Shown: positions 25,226 to 45,649 of the stretch, one piece after another
Layout: the number at the start of each line of letters is the position of its first letter
How positions within the stretch are numbered: the stretch's first letter is position 1
NCBI GenBank assembly: GCA_022539475.1
Contig: VCMS01000187.1
Span: 1 to 64,000, forward strand
Length of the DNA: 64,000 nucleotides
Reading direction: 5' to 3'
Source: Gracilaria domingensis
Taxonomy: Eukaryota > Rhodophyta > Florideophyceae > Gracilariales > Gracilariaceae
Made by a program: the position numbers and the translations under genes
The notes under the pieces: model-generated
What the model was told of the DNA's origin: nothing
Seen by the model: the letters and a program-made list of their open reading frames with translations, nothing else
The model's database searches: none

Positions 25226-25299
25226 TGGACACGGAGAATATAGTCGTGATAAAACGTAAAGGTAACAATGTAATAAACAATAAATTTATGCTACTATCT

Positions 25300-28439: not shown

Positions 28440-28469
28440 TAAAAGTGTCGTGTATATCTCAATACCCTT

Positions 28470-29330
28470 TTATGAATCTTGGTGGTTTTTATCGTGCTGC
28501 TTTTCCTCGTAGCCGTACAACAGAGCCACCAACATAATTGTCGAATGTACATCCTCCACGCTTTCGAACAGGTTGTGTACTCCACCCGGGATACAATCTT
28601 CTTTGACGTGAACGCCGTACACGCCTACCTCATGCAAAGGCCCGTCGCTCAAAGCACTTCCGAACGTCACGACGTCATCCGTATCAATAAATCTCGGTTC
28701 ATTATCCACAAGATTTTCTCCTCCGCTTCCTTTTGTGTATCGCTTGTCCACAATTTCGCAACTTTTATCGCCGGGATAGATAACAAACGCATCCATCTTC
28801 TGCAACAGGTCCCCAATAGCAGAATCCACTTCTTCTTTCCACTGCCACAGTTTGTTGTACACGAAATTGGGAAGGCCACTATCACTTCTGGTCTCCACGA
28901 ACCCCTTGTCATCATCATTCACAATACCATGCCTCCTATTCAAATCCCTTGCCAGGAACAGTAGTCCGTCAACAGTGTGGTCAAGGGTGTGATCATTGAA
29001 TGCACCCTTAATTTCCCTCTCGTCAGAGAAACGCAGGAAAGCTCCATGATTCGCCGAGACACCAAACTTATAGTCTCCGAGTCCTTCCATTTTCCCCTCC
29101 ACGTCGCCCACATCACCCCCTGTGACAAGTCCGAAACCAACACGTTCGTCAATGAACTTCATACACTTCACAACTTCTTCTGGAATTGACTCTCCTTCTC
29201 TTCTCAACGTTCCATCAACGGAACTTAATATACCGTAACCATTGGCATATATGAACTTAGACAAGGTATTTGGTGAAATTTCCGCCAAGTCTCTCTGTTC
29301 CTCTGCCATTTTTCCTGATACAGTCACCAT
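28470..29330 (-). CDS. TPP-like HAD-superfamily protein, nucleophile replaced
   Basis: 286 residues, open from Met 1 at 29330. The order of motifs fits the trehalose-6-phosphate-phosphatase branch of the HAD family: VDGTL-REGESIP, VGFGLVTGGDVGDVE, a GVSANHGAFLRF segment, a cap region, then FGSALSDGPLHEVG and a C-terminal VHVKED--GGVHNLFESVEDV. In motif I the first Asp of DxDGT, the catalytic nucleophile, is Ser (SSVDGT), and the GDD motif near the end is also changed. It may be a binding or regulatory pseudo-enzyme, or a decaying gene that is still open. No introns needed. Confidence 0.7.
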   Translation of the reverse strand: MVTVSGKMAEEQRDLAEISPNTLSKFIYANGYGILSSVDGTLRREGESIPEEVVKCMKFIDERVGFGLVTGGDVGDVEGKMEGLGDYKFGVSANHGAFLRFSDEREIKGAFNDHTLDHTVDGLLFLARDLNRRHGIVNDDDKGFVETRSDSGLPNFVYNKLWQWKEEVDSAIGDLLQKMDAFVIYPGDKSCEIVDKRYTKGSGGENLVDNEPRFIDTDDVVTFGSALSDGPLHEVGVYGVHVKEDCIPGGVHNLFESVEDVHSTIMLVALLYGYEEKQHDKNHQDS

Positions 29331-29630
29331 ACTGCCACAAGTACCGCATAGACAGGAACTGCATATACTTCTCTTAAAAGCAACCTTAAGTGCAGTTTCA
29401 GAAGTGTTAGGACGCTACATGTTCAATTGCGAATTGAATGGTGCCACCAATGATGTTAACGATACCGAGCATGTGGCATGTTGCAATTAGACGCAACTGG
29501 ACCAAAGACGTATGACATTTGTTCAATTACCAGCCTGCCGCACCTTTTCTATGTTCATATGTATAGCCTTGTAATAGTATACTACTCTTAATACTCGCAA
29601 GACACACATAATTTACTAATCATCTCATTC
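29331..29630. other. Spacer between the HAD gene and the chromatin element
   Basis: AT-rich, no ORF of note. The left terminus of the large element at 29.6-43.9 kb should lie here, but I could not identify a terminal inverted repeat by eye. Confidence 0.4.
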
Positions 29631-30971
29631 TCATCCACTTCGAGGCGCTCGCAGCCTCATTATTGGCAAATCGTCATCACTACTACTCTCGAGCACTTCG
29701 GTTCTACCGGCGTCCGCTTCCACACCAATCTCCACGACCACTTGGTCTTCGTCCATGTCAACCGCCCCACCCTCCTTATCGGACAACAGTTCATCCTCCG
29801 CCTCCTCCTCCTCGTCACCATTGACAAACGTGGGTCGGAAATCCCGCACCCGGTGAACAGCATCAGGTAGTGCGTAGCCCTCTGGTACCATGTACATGTG
29901 GTATCTAACCAGCAAATCCATAGACTCGGGCCTATCCACCTTGTCCTTCCCACTTGCTCCAGCATGTGTCACATCACCACGGCCCACGAATACAGAGTAC
30001 GGTGGGATGATTATCTTCTTCGCTGGATACACCTCCGACATCACTCGCAACTGTTGGTTGTTCATCCCCACCAGTTGATGGCTTCCAGCGCTCACCCAGA
30101 GAGGAAAGCCCTCTTTCCCAGAGGCCATTACAAAGTATCCGGGGTTGCCAGTATTCATTGTTTCCTTCGTAACCAGACCACTGAAGTCGGTGTGCAGCGT
30201 CTGGCGCTTGCACTTTCTCGTCGTCCCCAGAAATCGACCACCAGTTTTCGGAGTGTACATCTTCACAGCTTCCCTCTCATTGTCCCATAGTCCCAAAGCC
30301 GCAGCAATTGTACCCATTCGAACATCAAGTAAAGCACGCGATCTTACAACCCACCTGAGCTCCTCATTATCCTCCGGCTTCTCCACAGTACCCCAACGTG
30401 TCGACATCACTCTCCCCTCAAATGGTCCATCGCTACCGTCCTTCCATCCTTCATCATCGTTGATTATTTGAACAAACGACTTCTGTTCCTCTCCTTTCCG
30501 TATATCCGGCATCGCTCCATACTCATTCTCGAAGAAGTCCACCAACTTCCCCGACACATCTCCGAACTCCCGAACTTCTTCCAACTCCTCCCATTTAGGG
30601 ACACCATTATCCGTCGCAAAGCCATCAAGCACGCAATATCCATTCTGCCTTAGCTCAGCTTGCATTCGGGCGAAGAACATTTGCCCAAATTCGTCATGCT
30701 CCTTCGCAGCAACCCACAGCACCTCTTCATCATCCATACCTGTCGGTCGAGTACGAGGATACTGCATACCAAATGTCTCCGCCCGTAGGCGATGTTCAGC
30801 CCTTGCAGCGTGCCAAAAGACAAGATGGTGTACATCTCTGAGATTCGAGACACTTAGCAGCTCCGACCTATGTCCCTTCGGCAAGTGAATGACTCTGAGC
30901 CAGGGGTCCTTGTGCTCAATTACGTTCTTCCCTGCCATTCCTGCGGTCTCAGCCTGGCATACCCGCACCAT
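29631..30971 (-). CDS. 2-oxoglutarate/Fe(II) dioxygenase-like protein
   Basis: 446 codons are open from 30971; the next Met is residue 12 (MAGKNV). The double-stranded beta-helix ligands of the superfamily are visible: H260-T-D262 in RQTLHTDFSG, a distal H336 in GRGDVTHAG, and R356 in LLVRYH for the 2-oxoglutarate carboxylate. Spacing is as in phytanoyl-hydroxylase-like members. The C-terminus is very acidic and repeats EEEEAEDE and VVVEIGV-type runs. Substrate unknown; in this setting a base on DNA or a residue on chromatin is the natural guess. It overlaps an upstream short ORF by 52 bases in another frame, so it may be the C-terminal part of a longer ParB-dioxygenase polypeptide. Confidence 0.65.
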   Translation of the reverse strand: MVRVCQAETAGMAGKNVIEHKDPWLRVIHLPKGHRSELLSVSNLRDVHHLVFWHAARAEHRLRAETFGMQYPRTRPTGMDDEEVLWVAAKEHDEFGQMFFARMQAELRQNGYCVLDGFATDNGVPKWEELEEVREFGDVSGKLVDFFENEYGAMPDIRKGEEQKSFVQIINDDEGWKDGSDGPFEGRVMSTRWGTVEKPEDNEELRWVVRSRALLDVRMGTIAAALGLWDNEREAVKMYTPKTGGRFLGTTRKCKRQTLHTDFSGLVTKETMNTGNPGYFVMASGKEGFPLWVSAGSHQLVGMNNQQLRVMSEVYPAKKIIIPPYSVFVGRGDVTHAGASGKDKVDRPESMDLLVRYHMYMVPEGYALPDAVHRVRDFRPTFVNGDEEEEAEDELLSDKEGGAVDMDEDQVVVEIGVEADAGRTEVLESSSDDDLPIMRLRAPRSG

Positions 30972-31523
30972 GATGGGTTCAGTGGGCCATCATATGGGTC
31001 ACCTCGAACAAGTCCGTGCTCCTCAGATTCCGGAAGAGCTGTAGGTAACTCGTCATCAAATGACCCCCCACCTGTCTCTTGCTGATCGTCTGGCACAGCA
31101 TCGTTCTCGACGGTGACAACCCGTGGAACTGTCACAGAAAGAAGCTCATCGTCATCCACAAATGCAGAACTGCCTGCGTTCTCTGCATTCGCTCCCTCCC
31201 AATGCCACGAACTGAACCTTCATCGACCTTCCTCTGAGCACATGTTCATTTAGTTGAGACATCAGGTCATCCGGTGTCATGCTGTTCAGAGTAGATCTCA
31301 TCTGTTGTGTGAAAGTCTTTCTCCGTTTCTTCCTCGGCGGAGCCCGCTGTTCTTCTTCAGAGCTATCCAGAACTTCTATGGCACCTCGATTTCGGCCGTG
31401 CTCAATTTCCCTATAACTCACCTGCGCCCGTTCTCGTGCACTTCTTCGCGGCTCCCCTTCTTCACTGGCAGATGTTGCAGCAGCAGCAGCGGGAGTCCTC
31501 CTCTTCGTCACGGACTGCTTCAC
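30920..31523 (-). CDS. Basic/acidic low-complexity linker ORFs between ParB-like and dioxygenase genes
   Basis: Two short frames, 31152-31523 (123 codons, basic, with PPRKKRRKTF as a likely nuclear signal and EEGEPRRSARERAQ) and 30920-31159 (79 codons, acidic). Neither has a convincing own start. The first continues open upstream past the ParB stop in the -1 frame, across a CCGCCCCCG run. The second could be reached by a one-base change at a GGGAGGG run. They probably join the ParB-like and dioxygenase domains in one protein, by homopolymer errors in the assembly, short introns or frameshifting. Confidence 0.45.
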
Positions 31524-33580
31524 TGGTGCGGGGGCGGAATTACCTTGAGCATCGTCCGCAATCGATTCTGAACGGAAGTCGTGGCAGTTCTAATTGAGTT
31601 CGTCCTGCTCCGAACACGCGGCAATGTGTTGAAGTTCACAACTTGTCCCAAAAGGAACTGATACACAGCTGCGTTGTTGTCTGGGTCTTCAACGTCATCT
31701 TCATTCGATGGAGCAGAAAGACTGACTTCGCGTTTCAGGAACACTTCCATGGACTCTTCCTCGTTCAGTTCATTCCTCACTGCTCTAGCCGCGCGGAACA
31801 GAGACACTGCTCTATCATAAAAGAAACCTCGAACCTCCTCAAAGCTTTTCCATTGCTTTGTCTTCGTCGACTTGCCCTTCAATAGAAACATCTGAAGACA
31901 ATCAAGAATGAAGGAAAACTCCTCCGCATCCAAAACATATAGCGGAGTATGGGACAGATGTGTGAGACCTATGTCACTCACAGTCTCACATATATCCTCG
32001 AAATGGGCCAGCATTCCCTCACGAGACATGAGTTGCAGGGCGACATTGGCATATCTCAGGTACTGACGCTCTTGCACAGTCCCAATCAGTTGGCTCTCCT
32101 TCAACACTTCTGTCACTTCTGCAGGATCCACGTCTGCCGGCGTCACCCCCTCAACATCTTCAATTAGAATGGCGACCACACTAACTATAGAGTGTATCTT
32201 GTCTGCAAACATCATCCTTCGCATGGTACTCGTCGACTCATTGAGGTACGAAGCAACACATAACAATTCCTTCATCCCAATGGGCCTCCCATCTCTTCGT
32301 ATCAGCAGATTGCAACGCCAAAACTTGGCTAATCGCTTCCACTTCGGTGCACCAGTCGCTGCCAAATATTGTATAGCTTTCAGACGATGCAAACCATCTA
32401 CAATGAAGCACTTCTTCGTTAGGCGTCCCTTGTCAGTATCCCTCTCTCCCGTAGTAGCATCTTGTAAGGCCACCACTGGAGAACCCATCGACTGCAATAT
32501 CCCCCGCTCCTCCATACTCTTCACAAGGGCTTCAACGTGGCGTTTACTTACTCCACGGAGTAAATTGGGCGGAGTGTCGACCAGAGTGATGTCAACAGTA
32601 ACAACAACCATCCGGTACTGATTGAGGTTCACCTTTGGTACCTTCTGACGAATTCGTCTGTACGTCTTGCTCCGAGTAGGTGTCCCTTGTGTTCCAGACC
32701 GCTCGCCAGAAACACTTGAACGTGCCATTCTTGCGGATAGAAGCACAACGTCATCGTCCTGCTGCTCCGCAGTTTCTGGTGCAGTTTGGGGTACAGATGG
32801 ACCAGCTCCTTGCGCGGATTGCGCATCCGCGTCTGGAAGGGGACCTTTCATGATCTCATCTTCCTCCTCTTGCACAGCCGTCCCCTGCTGAACCGTCTGT
32901 TTCGACGCAGAAGATCCCCTTGTGTCGACGGTCTGATTCATCGCAGGAGAAGCCCTTTTCGACGCAGTGGGCTTCGTAGCGGAGGTAGACTTTGTTTGAC
33001 CTGTCCGCTTCGTAGCTGGGGATGCTCTCGTCTCCATAGACCGCTTCGTAACAGACGACGGACCTGCCCGCGGAGGTGCTACTGATGCGCTACCTCTCGG
33101 TGTTGATGAACTTCGAATTGGCTCCGTGCGGCTTGTCGGCGTCATCACCTCACTCATAGCGCTCACCGTTCCTCGCTTCGACGCCGGAATGCTGGCTGCC
33201 ACCGGTTCCATCATTTTCTCATCCCAAGGAGCGGCCGTCCGGAGATCCTGGATATATTGTGGAAGATCCAGGCCCTCCGCCCGGTAAGGGTAGAACGTCT
33301 GACCGCTTCGACTGATGAGAATATTATGAACCACCACAAGACCTGGGTCCAATTGCTTCCCGTGCAACTCGCGGCGTAGAACACTTCCAATTCCGTGCAA
33401 CAACGCTTCCCCGACTATCACCTTTCCTTCATCCTCAATATCCATCTGCAGAGAAACCCGCATTCCACCTTGCAATAATCGAGTGCTCCGCCGAGTGCGA
33501 GGAGTCACGCTTTGCGTACGCTTCGAACACGAGTTGGCTTCATGTTGAACAGCTATTGCAGTGAAAGGTGTTTTCAACAA
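31520..33580 (-). CDS. ParB/sulfiredoxin-fold domain protein
   Basis: Open for 686 codons; the first ATG is codon 40 (33463), since the 33580 codon is TTG. The N-terminal 80 residues are globular. Residues 150-310 are low-complexity with recurring TKR/ATK/SPA words and acidic stretches. Residues about 335-480 form a ParB-like domain: GVSKRHVEALVKSMEERGI, then PVVALQD, then VDGLHRLKAIQYL (394-406), which matches the (D)G-HR--A nucleotide-binding loop of ParB N-terminal domains. A helical C-terminal part follows. Bacterial ParB binds palindromic parS DNA and hydrolyses CTP; other members modify or nick DNA. The gene reads away from an array of palindromes at 33.97-34.72 kb. Eukaryotic nuclear examples are unusual. 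Confidence 0.65.
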   Translation of the reverse strand: MLKTPFTAIAVQHEANSCSKRTQSVTPRTRRSTRLLQGGMRVSLQMDIEDEGKVIVGEALLHGIGSVLRRELHGKQLDPGLVVVHNILISRSGQTFYPYRAEGLDLPQYIQDLRTAAPWDEKMMEPVAASIPASKRGTVSAMSEVMTPTSRTEPIRSSSTPRGSASVAPPRAGPSSVTKRSMETRASPATKRTGQTKSTSATKPTASKRASPAMNQTVDTRGSSASKQTVQQGTAVQEEEDEIMKGPLPDADAQSAQGAGPSVPQTAPETAEQQDDDVVLLSARMARSSVSGERSGTQGTPTRSKTYRRIRQKVPKVNLNQYRMVVVTVDITLVDTPPNLLRGVSKRHVEALVKSMEERGILQSMGSPVVALQDATTGERDTDKGRLTKKCFIVDGLHRLKAIQYLAATGAPKWKRLAKFWRCNLLIRRDGRPIGMKELLCVASYLNESTSTMRRMMFADKIHSIVSVVAILIEDVEGVTPADVDPAEVTEVLKESQLIGTVQERQYLRYANVALQLMSREGMLAHFEDICETVSDIGLTHLSHTPLYVLDAEEFSFILDCLQMFLLKGKSTKTKQWKSFEEVRGFFYDRAVSLFRAARAVRNELNEEESMEVFLKREVSLSAPSNEDDVEDPDNNAAVYQFLLGQVVNFNTLPRVRSRTNSIRTATTSVQNRLRTMLKVIPPPHQ

Positions 33581-33968
33581 TACGCTCGCTCTGGACGATA
33601 CAACAACGGAGGCGAGCCTTTAAAAGGCGACTTACGCTGGGCACCCCCGCTTTCGGCAGCTCCTCCCAGCGCACTGCCAGTCTCGTCCGTGTCCTGTCCG
33701 TGGCCGCTCGCACGCTGATTGTACGCTTTAGAGTCGTGGAGTTCGCGCAATGATGACTCACGCGAGCAATGGTCGCGTTCTCTAATCATGCTCTTCAAAT
33801 GCTTTGCATAGTAGTCAAGAGTACACTCATTCACTTCCATGTACAGCCTACTCCCGCCAATACACGTGGACAGCGGCGCCAACGTACCGGCGGCCGGGTG
33901 TAGCGAAATCACTGCGCGGCGGCGTGTTTTGGGAGGTCCCGGGAAGGCACCGGAATGTTGCGATTTTA

Positions 33969-34040
33969 TGCCCGCGGGCGGGGGGGTCGGTCGTGTTAGG
34001 GTAGGTACCCTAACACGACCGGACCCCCCGCCCGCGGGCA
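33969..34040. repeat. 70-base palindrome, copy 1
   Basis: GCCCGCGGGCGGGGGG arm, inner GGTCGTGTTAGGGTA, then the reverse arms. Nearly perfect, with a small mismatch beside the CGGTC box. Confidence 0.9.
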
Positions 34041-34074
34041 TAAATCGCACATTTTTCAAAAAATCGCCAAAATG

Positions 34075-34143
34075 TGCCGCGGGCGGGGGGGTCGGTCGTG
34101 TTAGGGTAGTACCCTAACACGACCGACCCCCCCGCCCGCGGGC
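34075..34143. repeat. 70-base palindrome, copy 2
   Basis: Same arms as copy 1, with centre GGGTAGTACCC. One base is missing from the outer left arm. Confidence 0.9.
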
Positions 34144-34175
34144 ATAAAATCGCACATTTTTCAAAAAATCGCCCA

Positions 34176-34259
34176 GAACGTGCCCGCGGGCGGGGGGGTC
34201 GGTCGTGTTAGGGTACCTACCCTAACACGACCGACCCCCCCCGCCCGCGGGCACGTTCT
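34176..34259. repeat. 70-base palindrome, copy 3
   Basis: Same core; pairing extends outwards through AGAACGTGCCCGCGGG on both sides, so this is the longest of the five. Confidence 0.9.
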
Positions 34260-34534
34260 GGCCACATTCTGGCACCCTCCGGAGACCTCCCAAAACACTC
34301 CTCCCGGCACTTCCTGTACCCACTGCGTCACCTTAGTGCACCATCCCGTCATCTTAACCCTCCAGACACTCCCTAATTTCCGTGATGGTGCACTGAGGTG
34401 ACCATCCCGTCTTCTCCACCCTCCAGCACTCCCTAATTTCCGGGATGGTTCACTGAGGTGACGCAGTGGGTACAAGAAGTGCCGGGAGGAGTGTTTTGGG
34501 AGGTCTCCGGAGGGTGCCAAAAAATCGTCGAAAA

Positions 34535-34610
34535 CGTGCCCGCGGGCGGGGGGGTCCGGTCGTGTTAGGGTAGGTACCCTAACACGACTGGACCCCCGCC
34601 CGCGGGCACA
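34535..34610. repeat. 70-base palindrome, copy 4
   Basis: Same core, GGTCCGGTCGTGTTAGGG type, centre GGTACC. Confidence 0.9.
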
Positions 34611-34644
34611 TTTTGGACGATTTTTTGAAAAATGTGCGATTTTA

Positions 34645-34720
34645 TGCCCGCGGGCGGGGGGGTCCGGTCGTGTTAGGGTACCTACCCTAACACGACCGGA
34701 CCCCCCCGCCCGCGGGCACG
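34645..34720. repeat. 70-base palindrome, copy 5
   Basis: Same core and centre GGGTACCTACCC, flanked by TTTTTTGAAAAATGTGCGATTTTA-like spacer that also separates copies 1 to 3. Confidence 0.9.
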
Positions 34721-35066
34721 TTCTGGTCACATTCCGGCGCCTTCCGGAGACCTCCCAAAACACTCCTCCCGGCACTTCCGGCAGTGATTTCGCTGCACAC
34801 GCCGTACACATATATCAAACTAGAGAAAACTAGCGCTTCACACCCACTTGATCCGCGACTTTTAGCACAATACGGGACCGTTGCAATAGCTCCGAATCGC
34901 GACGTGGCCGACACGCGACGCTATCGCTCCGACACGCGACGCTATCGCTCCGAGCGGACACGGACACGGACGAGACTGGCAGTGCGCTGGGAGGAGCTGC
35001 CGAAAGCGGGGGTGCCCAGCGTAAGTCGCCATTTAAAGGCTCGCCTCCGTTGTTTGCGCTGAAGCG

Positions 35067-35807
35067 ATGGATTCCACCGATGTTGGAGAGGAGATACATC
35101 CTATCGACATGAGTGCTCCGCCTCCGGCGTTCCATGCATATGTCAGACTTTTCTTGGTTCTTCGCGATGCTTTGGCAAACAGCGATGGAGGCCCTGATCG
35201 GCCACGGGACGTGGGGTTTAGAGGGTTAATAGAGTTCTGCGCCGAGAACTATAAGGATATTCCGGAGGCAAGGAAGATGTTTGAGGAGGCCACTAACTCC
35301 AAGAACCTGCAGAACTTGACACTGCAACAGCTGCGAAAGAGTGTTGTGAATAACAAACCTGTGGAACAGCGATATCTTGTAACGAAGCTTCTTGACAAGA
35401 AGGACGGGGATGAGGACCAGAGACTGCGCGATTTTTTCCTTCTCTCTATGGATATGGGTATATACCTACCGGTGCGATGCCTGGTTGGTTATTTCATGAC
35501 CAGGAGAAAGCAGGTTCTGAAGACGACAGTGTTCATCCCACCAACAGCTGTGAACCCATTTGAGGTCGTTATATACTTATCATACCTCGGCCACATAATG
35601 GGAGAGAACGACAACATCCGAATGATGAAGAAGAAACAACCGAAAAAGAAACGAAAAGTGAACCATGCACCAGCTGTGTACATACCCACTTTTACGTCGT
35701 TCTCCAAAGACAACTGTGATCGACTGGGATTCGTATCAGTGAGGTCGTATGGGCATGGAGTTGTTTTGCGGCTCATCTTGGATACACGAACGTTCAGCAC
35801 ATGGTGA
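35067..35807 (+). CDS. Uncharacterised protein with an SV40-type nuclear localisation signal
   Basis: 246 residues from the ATG at 35067, just after the right copy of the palindromic promoter. The N-terminal 150 residues look helical and globular. At residues 192-198 the sequence is PKKKRKV, identical to the classic SV40 large-T signal, within a KKKQPKKKRKV cluster. The last 20 residues overlap the methyltransferase ORF in another frame. It may be a separate targeting subunit or the N-terminal part of the methyltransferase protein. Family not recognised. Confidence 0.65.
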   Translation: MDSTDVGEEIHPIDMSAPPPAFHAYVRLFLVLRDALANSDGGPDRPRDVGFRGLIEFCAENYKDIPEARKMFEEATNSKNLQNLTLQQLRKSVVNNKPVEQRYLVTKLLDKKDGDEDQRLRDFFLLSMDMGIYLPVRCLVGYFMTRRKQVLKTTVFIPPTAVNPFEVVIYLSYLGHIMGENDNIRMMKKKQPKKKRKVNHAPAVYIPTFTSFSKDNCDRLGFVSVRSYGHGVVLRLILDTRTFSTW

Positions 35808-37476
35808 AACCATACATTTACATGAATATGCAGACGTTGAAGTATACAGCGCTAGAGACACGGGAGTCTGGTTATGCCCCCCGAGCCAGAGTACTCGATT
35901 CAACACAAAGGATGTGCCACAGAGCAGTACTAGTGGATCGGTGGAGACCTTGAGTGATGAATGCGATACAAACCTGCGAATACTGGCTAAGGAGTTTTTG
36001 ACAGACCTCGAAACCATATGCACCCACGATAGCCTCTATAGCTTACGGGTTGATCAGATGAGGAACTGGATAGAGTTTTCGGAGATACGGATGGATACCG
36101 TATCTAGCTCTGACTCCGGTGAGTTGCCTGCTCGATTTCAGAAGTTTTCGGAGTTGCTATGGAAACCGATACAGGATATGCGTCATGCGGCAGGGTTCCA
36201 TGTCGGCATTCACGCGAAACCTGATATTGAACTGACGAAAACCCCTAAAACTTCCGGTAATGCCGAACCTTCTTCGACCAAGTCTGCCCCACCCCCACCT
36301 CGTCGAGAGTATATGAACCTCGTGAGCTCCGATAGCGACGAGTTCGAGAAGCCGGTGAATCTTGCGGAGCATGAATCTCGGGTTGCCGGTTACAACATCC
36401 AAAAGACTGGTATTGAGCCGCCCATGAAGGGGATATCCAGTCTCCTTCGAATGAATATGGACAAGGTGTGGAAGGGGATGAGAAAGTCACACTTTGTAGC
36501 GTACAACTGTGACATGAAGGACCTGAGGCACACACACGAAACGTTTGTGAATCAGAGTGAGATTTTATGGGGTGAGGCACAGCTTGTCCTAACAGACCCT
36601 CCCTTTAACACTCGAAGGAAGAGGAACAAACGGAATAGTGGTCACGATGTCTTCAGTGAGGAAGACATGATCCGTACGGCTGACTTAATAAGTTCCGCGC
36701 TTCGGTCAGGTGGGCACTTCATTATATTCTGTGCCATGGCACAGTTTCATGTGTGGCACAGGATACTTTCGGAAACGGCGAGTACGAAAGATGAAGCTGG
36801 AAGCGAAGGTAAACCAGAACTCATGCCTTCGTTTAAAGTGGATGCGAATCCACTGGTGTTCATCCGGGATCGCAGTAATGTTGGAGGGAATCCACGGAAG
36901 TTTGGGATACAGCCCGTAACGGAGTACGCCGTTCATGGGGTGAAGCGTGGATTGCGACCATCGGAGGAAGCCAGTCTTACTCCATTTGAGGAGAACAATT
37001 TCATTCCTTCCACTTTCCCGGCTAACAGGAATGTAATTGACCGGGTGCCCAAACCGAGGGCGGGGGAGTGGTTGACATGGAAGGTACATGAGCCAGGTAG
37101 CTCAGTACCAGGTGGGCAGTACATAAGACCGGAGCAGAAGTCGAGGGAGTTGATGAAGGAGTTGATATGTCGCTTCACAAGACCGGGTGATCTTGTCATG
37201 GACATGTTCGCGGGAACTTTTTCTACGGGTATGGCGTGCCTATCGCTGACAAAGCATAGGAAGTTCTTGGGGTGCGAGAAGAATAGGCCATGTTTCAGCC
37301 ATGCGAAGCACCATCTAACGACTCTTATGGCCGAAGTTATTCGGGGGGGAAGAATGACATCCTGGTTGAACAGGAGGTGGTGGATGCGGCTTCAACGACC
37401 TATGAACGGGTTCCACATCGGGACCGAGGTCGGCTTGAATGGGAGGCTCCATTTGGTTACCCCCAGTACCAAGTGA
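35749..37476 (+). CDS. Beta-order DNA amino-methyltransferase (N6A or N4C type)
   Basis: 575 codons. Residues 283-287 are DPPFN, the catalytic motif IV (DPPY/F type). Residues 485-491 are DMFAGTF, the S-adenosylmethionine-binding motif I, preceded by PEQKSRELMKELI (motif X like) and followed by FLGCEKN (motif II). Motif IV before motif I is the beta order of bacterial N4-cytosine and N6-adenine methyltransferases such as CcrM. The 200-residue region between them would be the target-recognition part. Residues 1-240 are unrecognised. After motif II the protein probably continues in the 37290-37763 frame, because both frames are open around a GGGGGGG run near 37345. Confidence 0.75.
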   Translation: MGMELFCGSSWIHERSAHGETIHLHEYADVEVYSARDTGVWLCPPSQSTRFNTKDVPQSSTSGSVETLSDECDTNLRILAKEFLTDLETICTHDSLYSLRVDQMRNWIEFSEIRMDTVSSSDSGELPARFQKFSELLWKPIQDMRHAAGFHVGIHAKPDIELTKTPKTSGNAEPSSTKSAPPPPRREYMNLVSSDSDEFEKPVNLAEHESRVAGYNIQKTGIEPPMKGISSLLRMNMDKVWKGMRKSHFVAYNCDMKDLRHTHETFVNQSEILWGEAQLVLTDPPFNTRRKRNKRNSGHDVFSEEDMIRTADLISSALRSGGHFIIFCAMAQFHVWHRILSETASTKDEAGSEGKPELMPSFKVDANPLVFIRDRSNVGGNPRKFGIQPVTEYAVHGVKRGLRPSEEASLTPFEENNFIPSTFPANRNVIDRVPKPRAGEWLTWKVHEPGSSVPGGQYIRPEQKSRELMKELICRFTRPGDLVMDMFAGTFSTGMACLSLTKHRKFLGCEKNRPCFSHAKHHLTTLMAEVIRGGRMTSWLNRRWWMRLQRPMNGFHIGTEVGLNGRLHLVTPSTK

Positions 37477-37763
37477 TGCCTGGACATATTACTCAGTTCC
37501 TAGGAAGATACTGGAAGGACTGGGACTTTGTCGACAAGTGTGGAGAGCGTACTGTAGATCTTTGGGAGGAGAAGTACCGAGGAGCTCTGAATCTTATGGA
37601 TATGCATATGCTGTTGACTGTTGAAGCCAATCGATATCGCTTACATATAGCATCTTCTAAGATCGACATCCCCGTGCTGGTATGGGGGTGTTCACGGAAC
37701 ATAAGATATTGGCTGGGGAAACTATCTGTCATTTCTATGGAACTTTGGTATACACGGATCTGA
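37290..37763 (+). CDS. Linker and N-terminal SET part, -1 frame after the methyltransferase
   Basis: From about 37345 this frame reads on from the methyltransferase: GGKNDILVEQEVV, a WKDWDFVDKCGERTVDLW region and then RYRLHIASSKID, which is how the first strand of SET domains starts. It ends in this frame after the SET-type residues, and the next frame (37682) takes over with GVFTEHKILAGE. I take it as part of one methyltransferase-SET polypeptide. Confidence 0.5.
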   Translation: MFQPCEAPSNDSYGRSYSGGKNDILVEQEVVDAASTTYERVPHRDRGRLEWEAPFGYPQYQVMPGHITQFLGRYWKDWDFVDKCGERTVDLWEEKYRGALNLMDMHMLLTVEANRYRLHIASSKIDIPVLVWGCSRNIRYWLGKLSVISMELWYTRI

Positions 37764-38233
37764 CGAACCGGAAGGAAAGACACTTAACGTATGGAAGTGG
37801 CTGTCTCGGAGCAACTCCAGTGCGGTACAAGTTGTTTTCTATGATGGTCACTGTGACTGGTACGGAGTTTCTGCACCTGAGGAACAGACCAGGACAGGCT
37901 CAGGATAGAAAGGAGAGCGAAGTCTACATTGTCCCGGCGCCTTTTTGTATCGGGGGCTACATTAACGACGCCGGATATCATGCCGGGGATCCCGATTTAT
38001 CGGAGCCCCGGTCAAACAGGACTCGAAGTGCCAATGTGCAGGTGGTGGAAGCGAAGTCCGTGATACAGTTCAAGTCAGACCTTTCTAACTATGCTCTACT
38101 TCGTTGTAGAGCAGTAAGAGATATTGAGAGGGGCGAAGAGTTGTATTTCGACTACGGAGAGCAGTCGNCAATTACGAAGAGCAGTACGCCGGACTGGCTC
38201 GACTTGGAGCATAATGAGTTTCACTACGAATAG
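37682..38233 (+). CDS. SET-domain lysine methyltransferase-like region
   Basis: 183 codons. It has the SET order: GVFTEHKILAGETICHFYG (first motif), a YINDAGY segment in place of the usual NHS-C motif, a downstream N-V pair, then LLRCRAVRDIERGEELYFDYGE, the closing motif with the catalytic-site Tyr. The sequence has one undetermined base (38168). In another frame just after the stop, KYACECCSC resembles a post-SET cysteine cluster. Likely target is a histone or other chromatin lysine. The N-terminal strand lies in the previous frame. Confidence 0.65.
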   Translation: MGVFTEHKILAGETICHFYGTLVYTDLTNRKERHLTYGSGCLGATPVRYKLFSMMVTVTGTEFLHLRNRPGQAQDRKESEVYIVPAPFCIGGYINDAGYHAGDPDLSEPRSNRTRSANVQVVEAKSVIQFKSDLSNYALLRCRAVRDIERGEELYFDYGEQSXITKSSTPDWLDLEHNEFHYE

Positions 38234-38252
38234 AAAGTAAATATGCTTGTGA

Positions 38253-38750
38253 GTGTTGCAGCTGCCTGCAATACGCGTTGTTGTACATGTACACTGGAGC
38301 TCTTCATCTGTAACGGCGATATTTGCGACCCATTGGGCACCTCAAATTCCTAAAAAGCAGGAACTGCGGAGTCTCTTGGAATATCTGAACCATGCACCCC
38401 CCCCACCCCCTCCCCCCCTCCCCAACAATTTCGTTTCATTACCCTGTTTATCTCCACAACATGGTATAACGCCGAGAAAGCGAAATAGTACGCAGCGAAA
38501 CAAGAGTGGACAGAAGAAGAGAAGAGCATCGGATGATACGAATCAGGCTACAAGCACCGCACTTCCTAAACGGAAGTCGTCCTCGACGAAGGAGAGAGTC
38601 AGTGGGCGTTCTTCTACAGTACTCTCTCGCCCATCTCGCAGCGGAGCGTCTTCCGGGATTGCGTCAAGAATTCGTGATCAGCGAACGATGTCGTGCCGTC
38701 AACTGCCGATAATGCAAATCGTGCATCTGTCTCTGCTCTTCAGAAGATGA
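38253..38750 (+). CDS. Basic, proline-rich low-complexity ORF
   Basis: No ATG near its start; contains a PPPPPPPLP run from a poly-C tract (38395-38425) and KRNSTQRNKSGQKKRRASDD, a likely nuclear signal. It probably belongs to the N-terminus of the coiled-coil protein that follows, with the junction not resolved. Confidence 0.35.
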   Translation: MLQLPAIRVVVHVHWSSSSVTAIFATHWAPQIPKKQELRSLLEYLNHAPPPPPPPLPNNFVSLPCLSPQHGITPRKRNSTQRNKSGQKKRRASDDTNQATSTALPKRKSSSTKERVSGRSSTVLSRPSRSGASSGIASRIRDQRTMSCRQLPIMQIVHLSLLFRR

Positions 38751-38784
38751 GGTAACTCGGCCCAGCGGGTCAGGACAGGAGGGC

Positions 38785-40742
38785 ATGACAACTGGAACTG
38801 AAGAGGTTCGTATGACACCAAAACCTTCATGTCCCCGGCCGATACCGAAGACCGGAGCTACTGGGGCGCGGGTTACGCCGCCCAGTGGATCTGGACAACA
38901 AGGGACAATGACGAGAAGTCGTGAGAGCCCTAGTATATTAAGATCGTCACGTCCATCCCTGTCTTCCCCTCTTTCCAGAACGGGGGCCGTTGCAGCTCGT
39001 ACGAGGCCCAACTCATCTGATATACCATGCCATGGAGGAGGACAGACACGGGAGTTGGAGCTCGGAGCCGTGCCAAGGGTGGACACAGAACGCCTGCAGC
39101 CTCTCGTTTCTAAGGGTATGGCACATGAGGATAGATCCGATAACGAAATAACACCGAATCCTGCGGCATTACCGGGGCCTGTCGCCGAAGAAGCTATGGA
39201 AATAAAGGAAGATATCCAAACTGGTGTGAATTCAAGCTCTATGAACAGACCTGATCTTTTAAATGAACTGAATTGCTTGAAAGAAAAGGTTAAGACGCTG
39301 CAAGAGAACTTGATGGTTCGGGGAATTCTAGTGAAGGTCGCCCAAGAGCAGAGTAAGGCTTTGAAAAAGAGGCTTGAAGAGAAGGATCTAGTCATGGAAG
39401 GGCTAAGAGGGGCACTGAAACAGGAGGGAGATAGGAGTACACGTGCTGGTGAACCTGGGCAGACAGGTCGAAAGAAGAATAAAATTGAGGTGTGCGACGA
39501 GTTTCGAGGGGTTGCTCGAGCAGTGTATCACAACATGTTGACGTGGGCAAGGAGAGAAACAAGTGAGCTATGGCTCGAAGGTGAGTCGCTCACCCGAAAT
39601 TGGGATAACCGTGCCGAGAAGGTGGAAGACGCAACTGAGAGTGGGGAAGGGCTTATTGAGCCGGAGAAAGGTGGTTCATACATGGTTCCTAAAAACCCCG
39701 TGGAGCTCTTGGGCAGTTTTGGCATGTTCACACCGTCGGTAGAGGGGGGCCAGATGCTTTGCTGAAGAAAATGGTTGAAAGCGAGTTGAAGGAGTTGAGC
39801 TGGGAAGGTATTAGAAAAGCATCTCTTACCGACAGGTGTATACTGGAACTTTGTGCAGATATGTGCCTTAGGCAGAGAATGCGGCAGGCCATGAGTGACG
39901 TCTTGGGCGTTCGTAAGAGAAATACGAGGGATAAACTATTTCTGCTCCTGGGGTACGATCTGATTTGGAGAAGAACAAAGCTGGTAGAAGAGAATGCTGA
40001 CGAACTCACAATGCAGTTGAAGGAAGCGCAGGAGAACATACTGCGTCTTGACGAAAATGGTGTACCGAACACTTCATGGTGGAGAAAAGCCCCATTTGTT
40101 CGTCTAAAGTACTCCAATGCGGACAATGTCGAGGATATGCCGACGGAAGATCAAGACTTGTTCTTCCGAAACCGTGTCGGGGTACAAGTGCTGAAGGAGT
40201 TTATTGGGTATGATGTGGAAGACAAGGATACGGGCACCTTTTTAGATGGCACAATACTATTGCTCGCACGTTTGGACGCTTGGGTGTTGACGGTTGTGAG
40301 CCTTCTAAGTACGGATGTGTCAAGGGGTGGCCAGAGACAGAAAATGTTTACAAAGAAGTTTGCCCAACTGCTACCTCTGTGTTTAAAGAATGTTCTGGGG
40401 GATGTTAGGCAACGTGTCTTGAGGACCAATTCCAGCGAGTTTCATAATTTTGGAACGACAACGGAAGATTGGACTAAGGTTCTTGGTAATGACATGGGAG
40501 AGGCTACATTTGGATATCGAATGCCGTCGAACGGAAGACTTTACCTCACTGTGAAAGAACAATTTTTTATTGACAGTGTGAGCCGAAGATTGGGGTCTAT
40601 TATCGATTGCTTCGTTGGTGAATGCGAGGAAGGAGATATGGAGTTCAAGGAAATGGACATGAACGATTTCGGAAGTAACACAGGATCACAAGAAAAGGCA
40701 CCACAAGGTGAACATGTAGAGAATGAAGCCCTTAATGTTTAA
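38785..40742 (+). CDS. Coiled-coil protein of the element, two frames joined at a G run
   Basis: 38785-39765 gives a Ser/Pro-rich start and a coiled coil (ELNCLKEKVKTLQENL and a second helix KALKKRLEEKD). 39759-40742 gives a globular helical part with FLLLGYDLIWRRTKLVEE and LFFRNRVGVQVLKEFIGY. The first frame ends at 39765; the -1 frame is open across GAGGGGGGCC near 39745, where a slip would give one protein of about 650 residues. The heptamer G-GGG-GGC is in the right phase for -1 slippage. The stop at 40740-40742 overlaps the stop of the transposase. Function unknown. Confidence 0.55.
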
Positions 40743-43700
40743 GGCTGTACAAGATCAACGTGCTCAGTTGGTCCTTCATCTGAATCATGATAGAATCGAT
40801 TGATGTAGAATCGGTGTTGAAACCATTGAAGTGGAGGAAAAAAAGGTGGAGCAGGGTAGTTTGATCGAACAACATGGACAGATCCCTGTAGTGCAGAAGC
40901 CGGAACCATCCCGTACCAAGGAGTTAACTCTACGATAGTCTCCGCTTTGGAATGACGAGGGAACGGAAGAGTGTGGTTCTTTTCATCGTTTGTAGCCCAC
41001 CGTAAAGATATGCATTTCAATATGTGGTCGATGTTTGTTGCGGGGGGTAAAACCTCGAAATACCGGACGAATGCCACCTCTGGTGCGGTAAGTGCAGAAT
41101 CAAGGAGAGATATTCGAATCAGAGAGACTACCTGGGCAACCCAAGTCTCTGAATCTTCTCCGCTTACCAATACAGTGGAAAACTTTGGCTTTCTACTGGG
41201 ACCAAATGCTGGAGAAGCGAAGACACGTTGGATGATGGGGTATTTGGGTCGTCCCAGCTTAAGTGCCTTAGAAGACGAATCGAAGTGTTCAAGAGTCGGA
41301 ACGAAACCGCCTTTCACGAGGGCCGAATTCACCAGAGTTATCCTTGTCTTTTCTGGGAAGTATGTAATAGAGTGCTCATCCAGTGTTTCTTTCACGAGAC
41401 TGAGGAAAGGAGGAAGGGCCTGTTCACCAATCTGATCAAGAATCGACCTTGTGTCCGTACTTGAGAACATCTCTCTAACAGCAGTCCATGTTTTTGAACT
41501 GGACATACTTGAAACACAATGTTGAAGAGCTCGTAAAGTGAAAGAACGCCCTCTCATTGCAAACCGAGGAAGCTGTGTGGAAGTTCCTGGTAAACCTGGA
41601 TTACGCTGGTAAGGAGTATTGCCATTCCATTGCTTTCTAACATGTCCGTGCTCAATGGAGCGAATAGTCTCCTCCACAGCCGTTGCTGTTCTTCTGGACG
41701 TCTTTTTGTAGTGTCTCTTAAATAGCAGGTGTGCATGTTCGTATATGCCTGCGCAGTAGTACTTGATACTTCCCAGACGGCGAATATCGTCCACGAGATG
41801 ATCGAGAAGATGAAACTTCAGAGTTCCCAGTCTGGAGGGATGAAAATGCGCCAGAGTCTTTGTTGCGGAACGCTTGAAGGCTTCAATCTCCGAACTAAGA
41901 CACAGGAGAGAGCTTTCAGTCCAATACGGGTCACGATTGTATCTGAATAAGGTCGAGAGCAAGTCCGAATACTGAGAGAAAACGGTTGTGATTGGGGCAA
42001 CGTCCTGTTCTCCACAGCATATGTCAAAGAATGCTCCTATGAAGGGAAAGACCATGTCAAGTGCTTTGTAGTTTTTGGCCTCCAGCATTCCACGGAGACC
42101 GTCTTTCGTGAAGATACCATTCAAAGATTTGCCTTTCTCCTGCGTGGAGAAATCGATATGTAAACATTTGGCAGAAGAATCGCGTTCTATGGCAGCTAGA
42201 ATTGCGTTTGCATGGTTGAGAAGTTGGGTGCGTATCGTTCGAAATGAACGCGATGCAGATGTTCCTATTGTGGTGCACAGGGTGTCTGACTGCAGTCTCT
42301 CGATTGTGGCCGTTTTTATCAACTTTGAGATGCCGAGATGCAAGTTGTGTAATGGTTTGAATGAGAACAGACTGTATGGAGACAATCCCGGGATCATTCC
42401 AAGGCTTACGGAAGTTTCGAGGAACGAAGGAATGAGAGATATGGAATTTGAACGCATCAGAGTATCCGCTTGAGATCTCCTCTCCCTCGCACAACGTGGA
42501 CGTCTTTCCGCCTCGTCTTTTTGTGCATGTTGCAAGATAGCTGTGTATGTCTTTCGGATGCTTTTCGTGTGCTTTTGAGAACGTCCGTTGAATGAGGTGG
42601 GAATAGGACTGCATAAAGATGAGCGAGGGGCTTTGCATCTATGACATGGGCTTTCCGTTTTGGTCCCATGAAGAATGGACAGAATGTCCTTAGCCTCAGG
42701 AATATAGGCACAATAACTTGCGAGCAGAGGATGGCACACTCGACTTAGTTTGTCTTCCCCGATGAACTGAAAACCTTTCTGCGTGAGATTTAGAATGGGC
42801 TCCAGGACTTGACGAAGAGATTCTTGAAAGATTTGCATCCTGGACTCGCGTAGAGACTTGCTAGAAACAAATGGCATTGCGTCTGCTTCAGATGCGGAAA
42901 CCTCGATCAGTGTGGTAGGGAAGTATGCCACTACTGTGAGGTCATCACGGATACACTTACGGCGAAGCTCGTCGGAGAAGTTGAGAAATATGAGGTGAAG
43001 AGGATAGGCGGTAACCGATGTTTGCTTTAGAGTTGTTGAAGACTTATCGGTGTATACCTGCAGAAGACCTACGAAAGATTCACTGTAACTTATTTCTTGG
43101 GAGTACCACACTATTCTACTATCCAAAGAGCCCATGACTATTTCCTTAAGTTTTGAGGTGGCGTCTCTTGCGAGAGAGCCGGACATGGGGTGAGATATTT
43201 TCGTGGAGTGGGTCTGAGGTATAGGGTGGAAGAATGTGTTTTCGTTGTTAGCCAACTGGAGCTGTTTCACAAGTGTCTGAACGGGGTCTCTCGTGTAGAG
43301 GGTGGCGCTGAACTTACATCCTTCTGGCGAGACATTTCTGCGATTGAAACCGTCCTTTGAGGCGTATCGTTCGAAAATGGCGTTCTTCAGTTCTGTACAG
43401 CGCTTGGAACTTGTTATGGTCTCGTTGAATCGCTTTTGCGAGAATCGCGGGTCCCGAAGTAGCCCAATTAGCTCGTCAGCCTCACGATGACCAAGGTCGG
43501 AAGCTACTGAAGCCAGACAAACCGTGAGATAATCCATATGCAAATCACCGAGGGTCTCCTCAGAAGGCACTGGGCGGGAACTGCTTCCGTGTTCTCGCTC
43601 TAATGACGCGGGACCCGGGGATGGAGAAACACAATGCGAAGTGTCCGGAATGGGAGGGGCGCACGGAGTGGGGTCGACGATGTCCTCGGACACCGGAGGC

Positions 43701-43918
43701 TCGGGAAGGCGACAAGGGGCAGTGACCGTTTCGGAAGATGCGGGCGCGGGTGCGGAAAGCTTGAGACGTTTGCTTCTCCGAATGGGCCGGGTATTGTCGT
43801 CTTCCAGCGCTGCTTTCAGACGAAACGGGCAATTGTTGACATGCTGTTGAAGAGATAAGACTCCTCGGCGAGTAACGAAGGGGCACCCACGCTTCTTATG
43901 TGTACAGTAGTAGACCAT
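40739..43918 (-). CDS. Plavaka/KDZ-like (CACTA-related) transposase
   Basis: 1059 residues, uninterrupted. Residues 5-30 form a C2HC zinc finger (YCTHKKRGC, then LSLQQHVNNC). After a disordered stretch comes the family core: SVTAYPLHLIFLN-SDELRRK, AYFPTTLIEV, RQVLEPILN, then GEDKLSRVCHPLLASYCAYIPEAKDIL, and a CHRCKAPRS cysteine motif. FKPLHNLHLGISK corresponds to the D-LH-LH-G block; the first position is Pro here, not Asp. LKFHLLDHLVDDIRRLGSIK and KRHYKKTSRR follow. Order and spacing match Plavaka-type transposases of fungi. It looks whole and so may be recent. The upstream leader is 43919-44100. Confidence 0.75.
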   Translation of the reverse strand: MVYYCTHKKRGCPFVTRRGVLSLQQHVNNCPFRLKAALEDDNTRPIRRSKRLKLSAPAPASSETVTAPCRLPEPPVSEDIVDPTPCAPPIPDTSHCVSPSPGPASLEREHGSSSRPVPSEETLGDLHMDYLTVCLASVASDLGHREADELIGLLRDPRFSQKRFNETITSSKRCTELKNAIFERYASKDGFNRRNVSPEGCKFSATLYTRDPVQTLVKQLQLANNENTFFHPIPQTHSTKISHPMSGSLARDATSKLKEIVMGSLDSRIVWYSQEISYSESFVGLLQVYTDKSSTTLKQTSVTAYPLHLIFLNFSDELRRKCIRDDLTVVAYFPTTLIEVSASEADAMPFVSSKSLRESRMQIFQESLRQVLEPILNLTQKGFQFIGEDKLSRVCHPLLASYCAYIPEAKDILSILHGTKTESPCHRCKAPRSSLCSPIPTSFNGRSQKHTKSIRKTYTAILQHAQKDEAERRPRCARERRSQADTLMRSNSISLIPSFLETSVSLGMIPGLSPYSLFSFKPLHNLHLGISKLIKTATIERLQSDTLCTTIGTSASRSFRTIRTQLLNHANAILAAIERDSSAKCLHIDFSTQEKGKSLNGIFTKDGLRGMLEAKNYKALDMVFPFIGAFFDICCGEQDVAPITTVFSQYSDLLSTLFRYNRDPYWTESSLLCLSSEIEAFKRSATKTLAHFHPSRLGTLKFHLLDHLVDDIRRLGSIKYYCAGIYEHAHLLFKRHYKKTSRRTATAVEETIRSIEHGHVRKQWNGNTPYQRNPGLPGTSTQLPRFAMRGRSFTLRALQHCVSSMSSSKTWTAVREMFSSTDTRSILDQIGEQALPPFLSLVKETLDEHSITYFPEKTRITLVNSALVKGGFVPTLEHFDSSSKALKLGRPKYPIIQRVFASPAFGPSRKPKFSTVLVSGEDSETWVAQVVSLIRISLLDSALTAPEVAFVRYFEVLPPATNIDHILKCISLRWATNDEKNHTLPFPRHSKAETIVELTPWYGMVPASALQGSVHVVRSNYPAPPFFPPLQWFQHRFYINRFYHDSDEGPTEHVDLVQP

Positions 43919-44280
43919 CGAAAGAAGAAATGAAGGAGAAACGACGACAAAGACGGCAGAAGAAGGTCCTTCGAGGAGAGAAGGAGGTCATGCGTCAGTC
44001 AAGTTCGACGTCAAGCTGAGAACGGAGAATATATTTTGAGTTTAAATCACGTGCTTTCGTTCAAAAAGGAACGTAAATACACGTCGACCTCAACACAAGA
44101 GTGTACTTCTCGTATTATCTACCACTGGTTATAAACCTGTGGTTTCCCAACGTTGTACGCTGTACACTTGTCCAATCTCGCACAGAAAAATAAATCTCTT
44201 CCCTCCGCCGCCGCCGCCGCCCGTCCGACGTCCGACCTTTTGTTACCGTCGTGATCCGTGCCATCCTCGCGTTCTACTCC
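43919..44280. other. Transposase leader and right flank of the element
   Basis: Purine-rich leader (AAAGAAGAAATGAAGGAG type), then AT-rich sequence. The right terminus of the element should lie here; ACCACTGGTTATAAACC near 44123 starts with CACTG, as CACTA-type ends do, but I found no partner on the left. Confidence 0.35.
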
Positions 44281-44288
44281 GCTCCGTG

Positions 44289-44342
44289 GTACTTTTTTCC
44301 GCCCTCGCACTCGCTACGAAGCGCGAGGGCGGAAAAAAGTAC
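44289..44342. repeat. Perfect hairpin, 20-base arms
   Basis: GTACTTTTTTCCGCCCTCGC and its exact reverse complement with a 14-base loop. Confidence 0.9.
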
Positions 44343-44613
44343 GACGGATTACGAAGTAGCGTGCTGAGAATGGATTCCATTAAGCGGAAATGAAGCGTAC
44401 CTCATTCTCTTTCTCCGCCCTCGTCGGACGCCTCCATAAAGCGGACAGCATCCGTATCTCACGGATGTATTCCGTGCAGTCTTTCCGTGCAGTCTTTTCG
44501 TACGTGCTTCCATTTCCTTCTACGTATCTTTGTTCTAAACCAACCAATCCTCACCACGTCTCTTCGCGCTCTGCGACATGTAAACGGCAGGAAAAAGGCT
44601 TTGGGTTACTTTT

Positions 44614-45450
44614 GCGAGTTACTAGGTCCCTCGACTTTTCTAGCGCAATCTTTCTGTTCTGCTCTTATCAATGGTACGTTCTATCGCATTTCAACTGTAC
44701 AGGTACGACCAATTTCATTTCGTCTCTCAAGATCGATCTCTGGATGTTCGGGATAGGCGATTCTGGTACTTGGTTGGGACATAGGCTGCTCTCTCGTTTA
44801 TCGCATCTTGCGGTATGTTTGCTGCATGGGCATTCTTGGTGTCCTTGGTTGTGAGTTCTCGCTTCGACACCTTTTCGCGCTTTACGATGATGGTGGGCTG
44901 GTAATCTAACCGATCCCTTTCCTTCTTCTTCTTCCGTTTGCGAGTTACTAGGTCCCTCGACTTTTCTAGCGCAACGTTTCTGTTTTGCTCTTATCAATGG
45001 TACGTTCTATCGCATTTCAACTGTATCCAACGGAGCATTGACTAACATATGGATACTTTCTGCTTGCGTATACAGGTAAACGACCAATTTCATTTCGTCT
45101 CTCAAGATCGATCTCTGGCTGTTCGGGATAGGCGATTCTGGTACTTGGTTGGGACATAGGCTGCTCTTTCGTTTATCGCATCTTGAGGTATGTTTGCTGC
45201 ATGGGCATTCTTGGTGACCTTGGTTGTGAGTTCTCGCTTCGACACCTTTCGCGCTTTACGATGATGGTGGGCTGGTAATCTAACCGATCCCTTTCCTTCT
45301 TCTTTTTCATTTTGCGAGTTACTAGGTCCCTCGACTTTTATAGCGCAACGTTTCTTTTTTGCTTTATCAATGGTACGTTCCATCGCATTTCAAATGTATC
45401 CAACGGATCATTGACTAACTTATGGATACTTTACGCTTGCGTATACAGGT
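44614..45450. repeat. Three tandem units of about 325-375 bases with an intron-like segment
   Basis: Units begin with GCGAGTTACTAGGTCCCTCG at about 44614, 44939 and 45314. Units 2 and 3 hold a segment of about 52 bases with GTATCC, a TTGACTAAC branch-type motif, a pyrimidine stretch and TATACAG. In unit 1 nearly all of that segment is missing, leaving CTGTACAGG. The repeats look like duplicated pieces of a gene with a small intron. Frames on the minus strand that share EGPSNSQ and RLPAHHHRKARK are probably chance openings, as the splice signals are on the plus strand. Confidence 0.65.
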
Positions 45451-45496
45451 AAATGACTTTTGATGCGTACGTAGCTCACGAGTTGCAGGTGCAGGT

Positions 45497-45545
45497 TCCT
45501 CAAGTAGGGAACCATGCATCTGGGCATGGTTCCCTACATGAGGAA
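45497..45545. repeat. Hairpin, 22-base arms with one mismatch
   Basis: TTCCTCAAGTAGGGAACCAT against ATGGTTCCCTACATGAGGAA, loop about five bases. Confidence 0.85.
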
Positions 45546-45547
45546 CG

Positions 45548-45580
45548 GAGAGGATGAGGCGCTTCGCGCCTCATCCTCTC
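45548..45580. repeat. Perfect hairpin, 15-base arms, loop TTC
   Basis: GAGAGGATGAGGCGC, TTC, then the exact reverse complement. It follows directly on the previous hairpin. Confidence 0.9.
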
Positions 45581-45626
45581 GGAGTGCGTATTTGTTCTAC
45601 CGATACAGCCGATGGTGGACGTGCAG

Positions 45627-45646
45627 TCTGCGGCATCTGCCGCAGA
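45627..45646. repeat. Short perfect hairpin, 9-base arms
   Basis: TCTGCGGCA, TC, TGCCGCAGA. Third in a row within 150 bases. Confidence 0.75.
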
Positions 45647-45649
45647 TTG

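Follow-up and report, generated by a model that had tools for sequence, protein, structure and literature searches.

Introduction

Transposons are usually regarded as targets of DNA and histone methylation. In the accessible text of Kojima 2025 (PMC12730594), TET/JBP dioxygenases are reported to be carried by fungal Plavaka and other DNA transposons, the target-site duplication (TSD) is given as 2 bp in PlavakaA and 2-3 bp in PlavakaB, and SET genes are cited from HarbingerS and MuDR transposons of Phytophthora. Passages of a second study describe giant Plavaka repeats in Amoebidium, as well as adintovirus-like insertions of that organism containing Dam methyltransferase genes (PMC11244446). 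Here we analysed a 64,000-nucleotide stretch of the red alga Gracilaria domingensis (contig VCMS01000187.1, positions 1 to 64,000 of the forward strand; hereafter the window), in which a preliminary description had placed a transposon with a set of predicted epigenetic genes at 29.6-44.1 kb. We found that this span is only the interior of a 22,815-bp element at 23263-46077, that the gene cluster is real, mobile as one unit and larger than first proposed, and that hundreds of whole or shortened relatives of the transposon are present in the host genome. The explanation that we favour, with a probability of roughly 0.6, is that a giant Plavaka-type transposon mobilises genes for a transposase, a coiled-coil protein, a methyltransferase-SET fusion and a ParB-like-dioxygenase-like fusion as a unit and marks itself with their predicted activities, the remaining genes apparently being passive cargo. 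The features that carry this reading are the following.

23263..46077, plus strand: whole transposon, 22,815 bp, flanked by TT and TT; set by shared match edges, exact junctions and terminal inverted repeats (TIRs)
23263..23277, plus strand: left TIR, CGTCTGTGTTCTGCA
46063..46077, minus strand: right TIR, read on that strand as CGTCTGTCTCTTGCA; identical to the left at 12 of 15 positions
44606..45457, no strand: subterminal tandem repeats, about 374 bp
40739..43918, minus strand: Plavaka transposase, 1059 aa, PF18759 E 2.3e-17
38253..40742, plus strand: coiled-coil protein gene; a single open reading frame (ORF) of 810-868 codons in L001 and L002, split in the window
35067..38233, plus strand: fusion gene of an N-terminal region, a predicted beta-class DNA amino-methyltransferase and a SET domain; broken in the window, a single ORF in L050
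29631..33580, minus strand: fusion gene of a ParB-like and a 2-oxoglutarate-dioxygenase-like part; split in the window into 31520-33580, 31152-31523 and 29631-30971
32171..32659, minus strand: ParB-like core (GVS.RHV ... FIVDGLHRLKA), with PHROG ParB and GmrSD_N matches
29634..30971, minus strand: dioxygenase-like part with HTD, GSH, GDVTH and LLVRYH motifs
33602..35054, no strand: intergenic block separating the divergent fusion genes, with 93-nt inverted repeats at its edges (33602-33694 and 34962-35054)
33993..34693, no strand: five palindromes, GTGTTAGGGTA and TACCCTAACAC separated by 1-2 nt, within longer hairpins

Extent, copies and mobility

The edges of the element are shared with its relatives. 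All 28 matches listed for window 14-27.9 kb in the host genome (77.9 Mb, 680 contigs) begin at window 23252-23265; among the matches listed for window 43.7-56 kb, none passes 46087 and many end at 46074-46087. The inverted termini are CGTCTGT..ACAGACG, and GGGTCGTCC is present three times within the final 500 bp. The host genome contains 493 exact matches to a 21-mer of the left end and 478 to one of the right end, and none to the reversed control pattern of either. Positions were listed for 100 of the 493 left and 100 of the 478 right ends, and the pairings are therefore samples or lower bounds. Pairing was done with contigs up to C60, which supply 98 of the listed left ends and 87 of the right ones (those on C62-C67, two left and 13 right, were left out). 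It gave 45 neighbouring pairs in the correct orientation, 6.4-24.3 kb apart, with spacings that cluster near 10.3, 13-14 and 22.8 kb. Contigs that start or end within the element include C35, C215, C228, C288, C310, C359, C429, C463 and C645.

A 2-bp duplication flanks 15 of 25 copies, compared with 49 of 600 mispaired flanks used as a control. Other lengths gave 7 of 25 at 1 bp and 0 of 25 at 3 bp and at every length from there to 9 bp. The sample comprised 20 of the 45 pairs, matched by eye ahead of the systematic pairing and all among its 45, together with the window copy and copies on C2, C165, C318 and C409, which had been selected earlier for possessing both ends. Before this test, the right flank was already known for one pair (C2, 481821) and both flanks for none. 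The middle of the element is colinear, with the same gene order, across many independent contigs, and at one locus (L028) the transposase gene of a sister copy is interrupted by another copy of the element, with one junction seen.

The search for copies and the alignment of their ends, which the preliminary description had proposed, thus yielded common ends, inverted termini and 2-bp duplications. Found in many copies together with the same gene order, these support its suggestion that the genes move together, and the compact packing that it saw within 29631..43918 is confirmed. It had named two observations that would count against such a unit. The first was that copies of the transposase end before 40.7 kb; they extend past this point. 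The second was that the genes occur singly at unrelated loci; of the 22 oxygenase-like matches on C1-C60, 13 have an exact left end 6.1-6.8 kb away on the expected side, four have no listed left end on that side and five have one at another distance.

The transposase

The match of the transposase to PF18759 scores 63.6 bits against a cut-off of 26.3, and the frame is open from stop to stop over 1099-1100 codons in eight of eight sister copies. Two motifs, CHRC at 425 and HLLDH at 703, lie ahead of YEHAH at 726; the CHRC-type motif is present in seven and HLLDHL in all eight of copies L001-L008. With catalytic residues inferred by position, these C(2)C and H(3-4)H motifs would lie between the second D and the last E, a placement that the accessible part of PMC12730594 describes for EnSpm, Mirage, Chapaev and Transib. 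The element thus has the transposase domain, the C(2)C/H(3-4)H motifs and the 2-bp TSD of Plavaka (CMCT). Of the earlier label, a whole-looking Plavaka/KDZ-like transposase, the 1059-aa ORF and the Plavaka assignment stand. A KDZ transposon was rejected: the only profile match is to Plavaka, and none of the 25 copies has a TSD above 2 bp in tests to 9 bp, KDZ having 7-8 bp.

Two divergent fusion genes

The enzyme ORFs first taken for separate genes are fragments of fusion genes, which are intact in copies L049 and L050. A single ORF of at least 1016 codons encodes methyltransferase and SET in L050 (C164), where each Pfam domain scores above its cut-off; a 462-codon ORF in L102 combines SET with the half of the methyltransferase that contains motif I. 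The window frame is interrupted by single-base differences and one N. The methyltransferase part matches PF01555 (E 1e-15) and has the beta order, with DPPF preceding DMFAG, an FxGxG-type motif; it also matches the phage methyltransferase profile PHROG 67 (E 3.3e-23). The SET domain matches PF00856 (E 2.9e-8; 32.4-34.5 bits against a cut-off of 22.4). Both identities, predicted in the preliminary description and borne out by these profiles and the motif order, are firm as sequence assignments.

The second gene probably fuses a ParB-like DNA binder with an oxygenase. The two parts form one ORF of 1305 aa in L049 (C296), and on C79, C81, C241 and C296 an equal stop-free open frame was reported for both. 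In protein searches that scored the best 95 of 702 oxygenase-like and 68 of 819 ParB-like candidates, 64 and 50, respectively, have no internal stop, and for at least 28 of those 68 best ParB-like matches a listed oxygenase-like match lies no more than 4 kb away. In L049, the HTD, GDVTH and LLVRYH motifs begin at 1119, 1191 and 1212; all dioxygenase-like motifs are present in ten of 11 loci, L021 being without three. We read the HTD, distal H and R motifs as a possible signature of the double-stranded beta-helix of a 2-oxoglutarate/Fe(II) dioxygenase. A TET/JBP identity is unsupported, with no TET/JBP profile match. Single-sequence structure models of the ParB-like and oxygenase-like parts reached a pLDDT (predicted local distance difference test) of 34 and 32, and PDB searches of both parts returned nothing or chance-level matches.

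An array of palindromes between the fusion genes

Positions 33600-34560 fold much better than shuffled versions of that sequence (20 shuffles, z -32). The palindrome, searched as a pattern one base longer on each side, is found at 1079 places in the host genome. Among 50 distinct places listed, 49 lie within 13 kb inward of an exact element end; the listed palindromes are thus nearly confined to the element. Among 13 end pairs on C2-C9, 11 enclose at least one listed palindrome, comprising all 11 pairs below 21 kb; the other two (21.4 and 22.9 kb) may contain imperfect palindromes. The palindrome cores include TTAGGG/CCCTAA, a telomere-like string.

Shortened copies keep the element ends and the palindromes. 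We read two copies of 10.2-10.3 kb, on C19 and C27, as 400-base samples. Both share a junction 28870/32621 and are without the DNA from the palindrome block to about 41.1 kb, the junction 34913/41118 being read in C27 only; C27 has further junctions at 27004/27982 and 28029/28744, and the sample spacing in C19 is consistent with both. Both ends and the palindrome block are kept, and the methyltransferase-SET gene and most of the ParB-oxygenase gene are lost. Retention of the block in these two copies suggests that it has a function in cis, and we hypothesize that the ParB-like part binds to the palindromes.

Other genes and surroundings

The coiled-coil gene is one ORF in two of eight copies; about 107 bp are present in all eight sister copies, L001-L008, as an extra piece relative to window 38966. 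The left third of the element contains three further ORFs.

23731..24756, minus strand: ORF for a coiled-coil-like protein without an assigned family
25766..26920, plus strand: 384-aa ORF with a Rossmann-like start
28470..29330, minus strand: HAD-like hydrolase ORF, PF08282 E 4.4e-5, 23.8 bits, cut-off 20.9

A Pfam scan of the 384-aa ORF gave no match; we take it to resemble ketopantoate reductases.

Outside the element, window 1-4725 repeats the left part of the element in inverted orientation and adjoins retroelement sequence. The same junction is present on C96 (L030), where the retroelement flank is 97.9% identical over 524 bp. The retroelement remnant at 4626-10266, presumably of Ty3/gypsy type, has RNase H and integrase domains and many genome copies, and its match starts at the end of the inverted element. 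A tandem array of about 55-bp units lies at 16215-16671 (the listed family has six copies, of which five are 60-71% similar to the reference), and an ORF with DUF6818 (PF20681, E 2.4e-9) at 17134-17952. Beyond the right end, 47364-55495 is another dispersed repeat, also found at C36 98118-105469; a piece of it directly adjoins the right end of the C318 element copy. Within it lies an ORF (54043-54783) whose product presumably resembles a nuclease of the Harbinger type. An ORF at 62451-63158 has a TAAHC motif and is presumably a trypsin-like serine protease.

Selection, mechanism and alternative explanations

Selection was measured as the pairwise ratio of nonsynonymous to synonymous changes (pN/pS) with a codon bootstrap interval. 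The values were 0.42 (0.27-0.65) for the transposase, 0.34 (0.18-0.74; n = 3 sequences) for the methyltransferase and 0.63 (0.42-0.98) for the ParB-like part. Because all three intervals lie below 1, these element proteins are constrained, and their genes are under purifying selection. For the left-third genes the values suggest neutrality, although the intervals are wide (HAD ORF 0.99, 0.48-2.78; 384-aa ORF 0.88, 0.54-1.76).

If the favoured reading is right, the transposase would cut at CGTCTGT..ACAGACG, possibly aided by the subterminal GGGTCGTCC repeats, and the palindrome array would serve both divergent fusion genes as a shared control region and would also be where the ParB-like part docks. 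The methyltransferase-SET protein would put N6A (or N4C) marks on the DNA of the element and lysine marks on the element as well; the ParB-like-dioxygenase protein would read the array and oxidatively remove marks. Such removal might keep the element expressible, or time excision against host silencing. Writing, reading and erasing are predicted here from protein domains, from which we infer self-marking or anti-silencing by the element. A stronger form of the idea, which we regard as doubtful, is a self-contained epigenetic switch in which a bifunctional writer, a methyltransferase for both DNA N6A and lysine, would mark the element and its shortened relatives, and the ParB-like-dioxygenase protein would dock on a parS-like palindrome array encoded by the transposon, spread and erase, so that the element would set its own on/off state and act in trans on the entire family.

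Several observations weigh against the favoured reading. Among 85 neighbouring ends less than 30 kb apart, 40 do not pair properly, which we ascribe to nesting, decay and broken contigs. The 2-bp duplication is present in nine of nine copies of about 10 kb, three of seven of 12-15 kb and three of nine of 22-23 kb. Its rarity in the longest class is the main weakness of the full-length claim, and we read its rarity in long copies as misjoined assembly repeats, recombination, or little recent full-length movement. Many contigs stop within the element, which suggests that the assembly breaks at it, and long copies may for that reason be misjoined. Shortened copies have also spread in the absence of the enzymes in cis. 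The window copy is itself decayed rather than whole; its transposase has Tyr405, compared with Asp in all 12 loci in which the motif was found (15 examined). Methyltransferase and SET form a single ORF in one of three copies read. The pN/pS interval of the dioxygenase-like part spans 1 (0.66, 0.38-1.25), SET alone gives 0.77 from very few changes and without an interval, and the second half of the coiled-coil gene gives 0.98 (0.39 to unbounded).

The weakness of the ParB-like and dioxygenase-like assignments, both claimed more firmly in the preliminary description, also weighs against the favoured reading. The best match of the ParB-like part, PHROG ParB at E 0.0085, is sub-threshold, as is a rival match to DUF1335 (E 0.26) that overlaps it; Pfam GmrSD_N gave E 0.12, and a Pfam scan gave no ParBc match. 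A member of the ParB/Srx-like superfamily is consistent with the PHROG match, and the identity is weak. The HTD, distal H and R motifs would fit a dioxygenase; no Pfam (E up to 10) or NCBIfam match was found, in scans whose HMMER filters drop most very weak matches. With motifs as its basis and neither profile nor structure in support, that identity is not secured.

Among the alternatives, the one that survives best is that the enzymes, within a real giant Plavaka transposon, are anti-silencing or passenger genes only, with no write/erase circuit and no ParB docking, and that the palindromes are a bidirectional promoter or a nested foldback element. The neutral look of the left-third genes, the dioxygenase-like interval that includes 1 and the commonness of shortened copies, two of which were sampled and found without the enzymes, are in its favour. 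It accounts less well for the constraint on the transposase, methyltransferase and ParB-like genes, for the stop-free frames of most scored oxygenase-like and ParB-like matches and for the near restriction of the listed palindromes to the element, and we consider it possible, if rather unlikely. An endogenous or degraded DNA virus (Polinton-, adintovirus- or giant-virus-like) would fit the size of the element, its bacterial or viral type of methyltransferase with the PHROG 67 match, and the Dam genes reported in the Amoebidium insertions (PMC11244446, accessible text). We rejected a viral origin as very improbable: no capsid, polymerase B or packaging gene was found among the proteins scanned, the element has a Plavaka transposase, short TIRs and a 2-bp TSD, and three of its proteins have no relative among viral contigs in a scan that detects close relatives only. 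A chance neighbourhood of unrelated repeats and genes beside a transposase, which the repeat-rich window with its retroelement sequence and second inverted element copy might suggest, is scarcely credible, its plain form being refuted by the many independent contigs in which copies have the same ends and gene order and carry TSDs.

A Plavaka-type element high in copy number, with near-identical copies, its own predicted writer and a putative eraser, and intact beside shortened copies, would allow us to ask whether mobile DNA sets its own epigenetic state. It would also let one ask whether N6-methyladenine (6mA) or N4-methylcytosine (4mC) in such a genome is partly transposon-made, and the methyltransferase-SET fusion would naturally connect the marking of DNA with that of histones.

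Comparison with known systems

A literature search over titles and abstract openings, with subscription papers mostly outside it, found no transposon with a methyltransferase-SET or ParB-dioxygenase fusion. The accessible text on the giant Plavaka repeats of Amoebidium (PMC11244446) mentions hits in dinoflagellates or red algae; it describes the repeats with tyrosine recombinases, and neither type of fusion is described in that text. Like the element described here, HarbingerS and MuDR of Phytophthora, as cited in the accessible part of PMC12730594, are DNA transposons with a SET methyltransferase gene; they differ in their transposase, and SET is here placed behind a DNA methyltransferase in a fusion. 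The predicted methyltransferase resembles the beta-class adenine methyltransferases CcrM and DpnA in PF01555, in motif order and in PDB matches (5hek, 5hfj, 6pbd), whereas here it is fused to SET within a transposon of a eukaryotic genome. Fungal TET-bearing Plavaka elements, in the same accessible part of PMC12730594, share with this element a Plavaka transposase, a predicted dioxygenase gene and a TSD of 2 bp (2-3 bp). They differ in that the element here is 22.8 kb long, has a dioxygenase-like part without a TET/JBP match that is fused to a ParB-like part, and adds the DNA amino-methyltransferase-SET fusion. Fungal Plavaka termini are given there as TGT..ACA or CATCA..TGATG and those here are CGTCTGT..ACAGACG; we therefore do not file the element under PlavakaA or PlavakaB. 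Transposons with a dioxygenase or with SET are already known, and it is the two fusion genes that are unusual.

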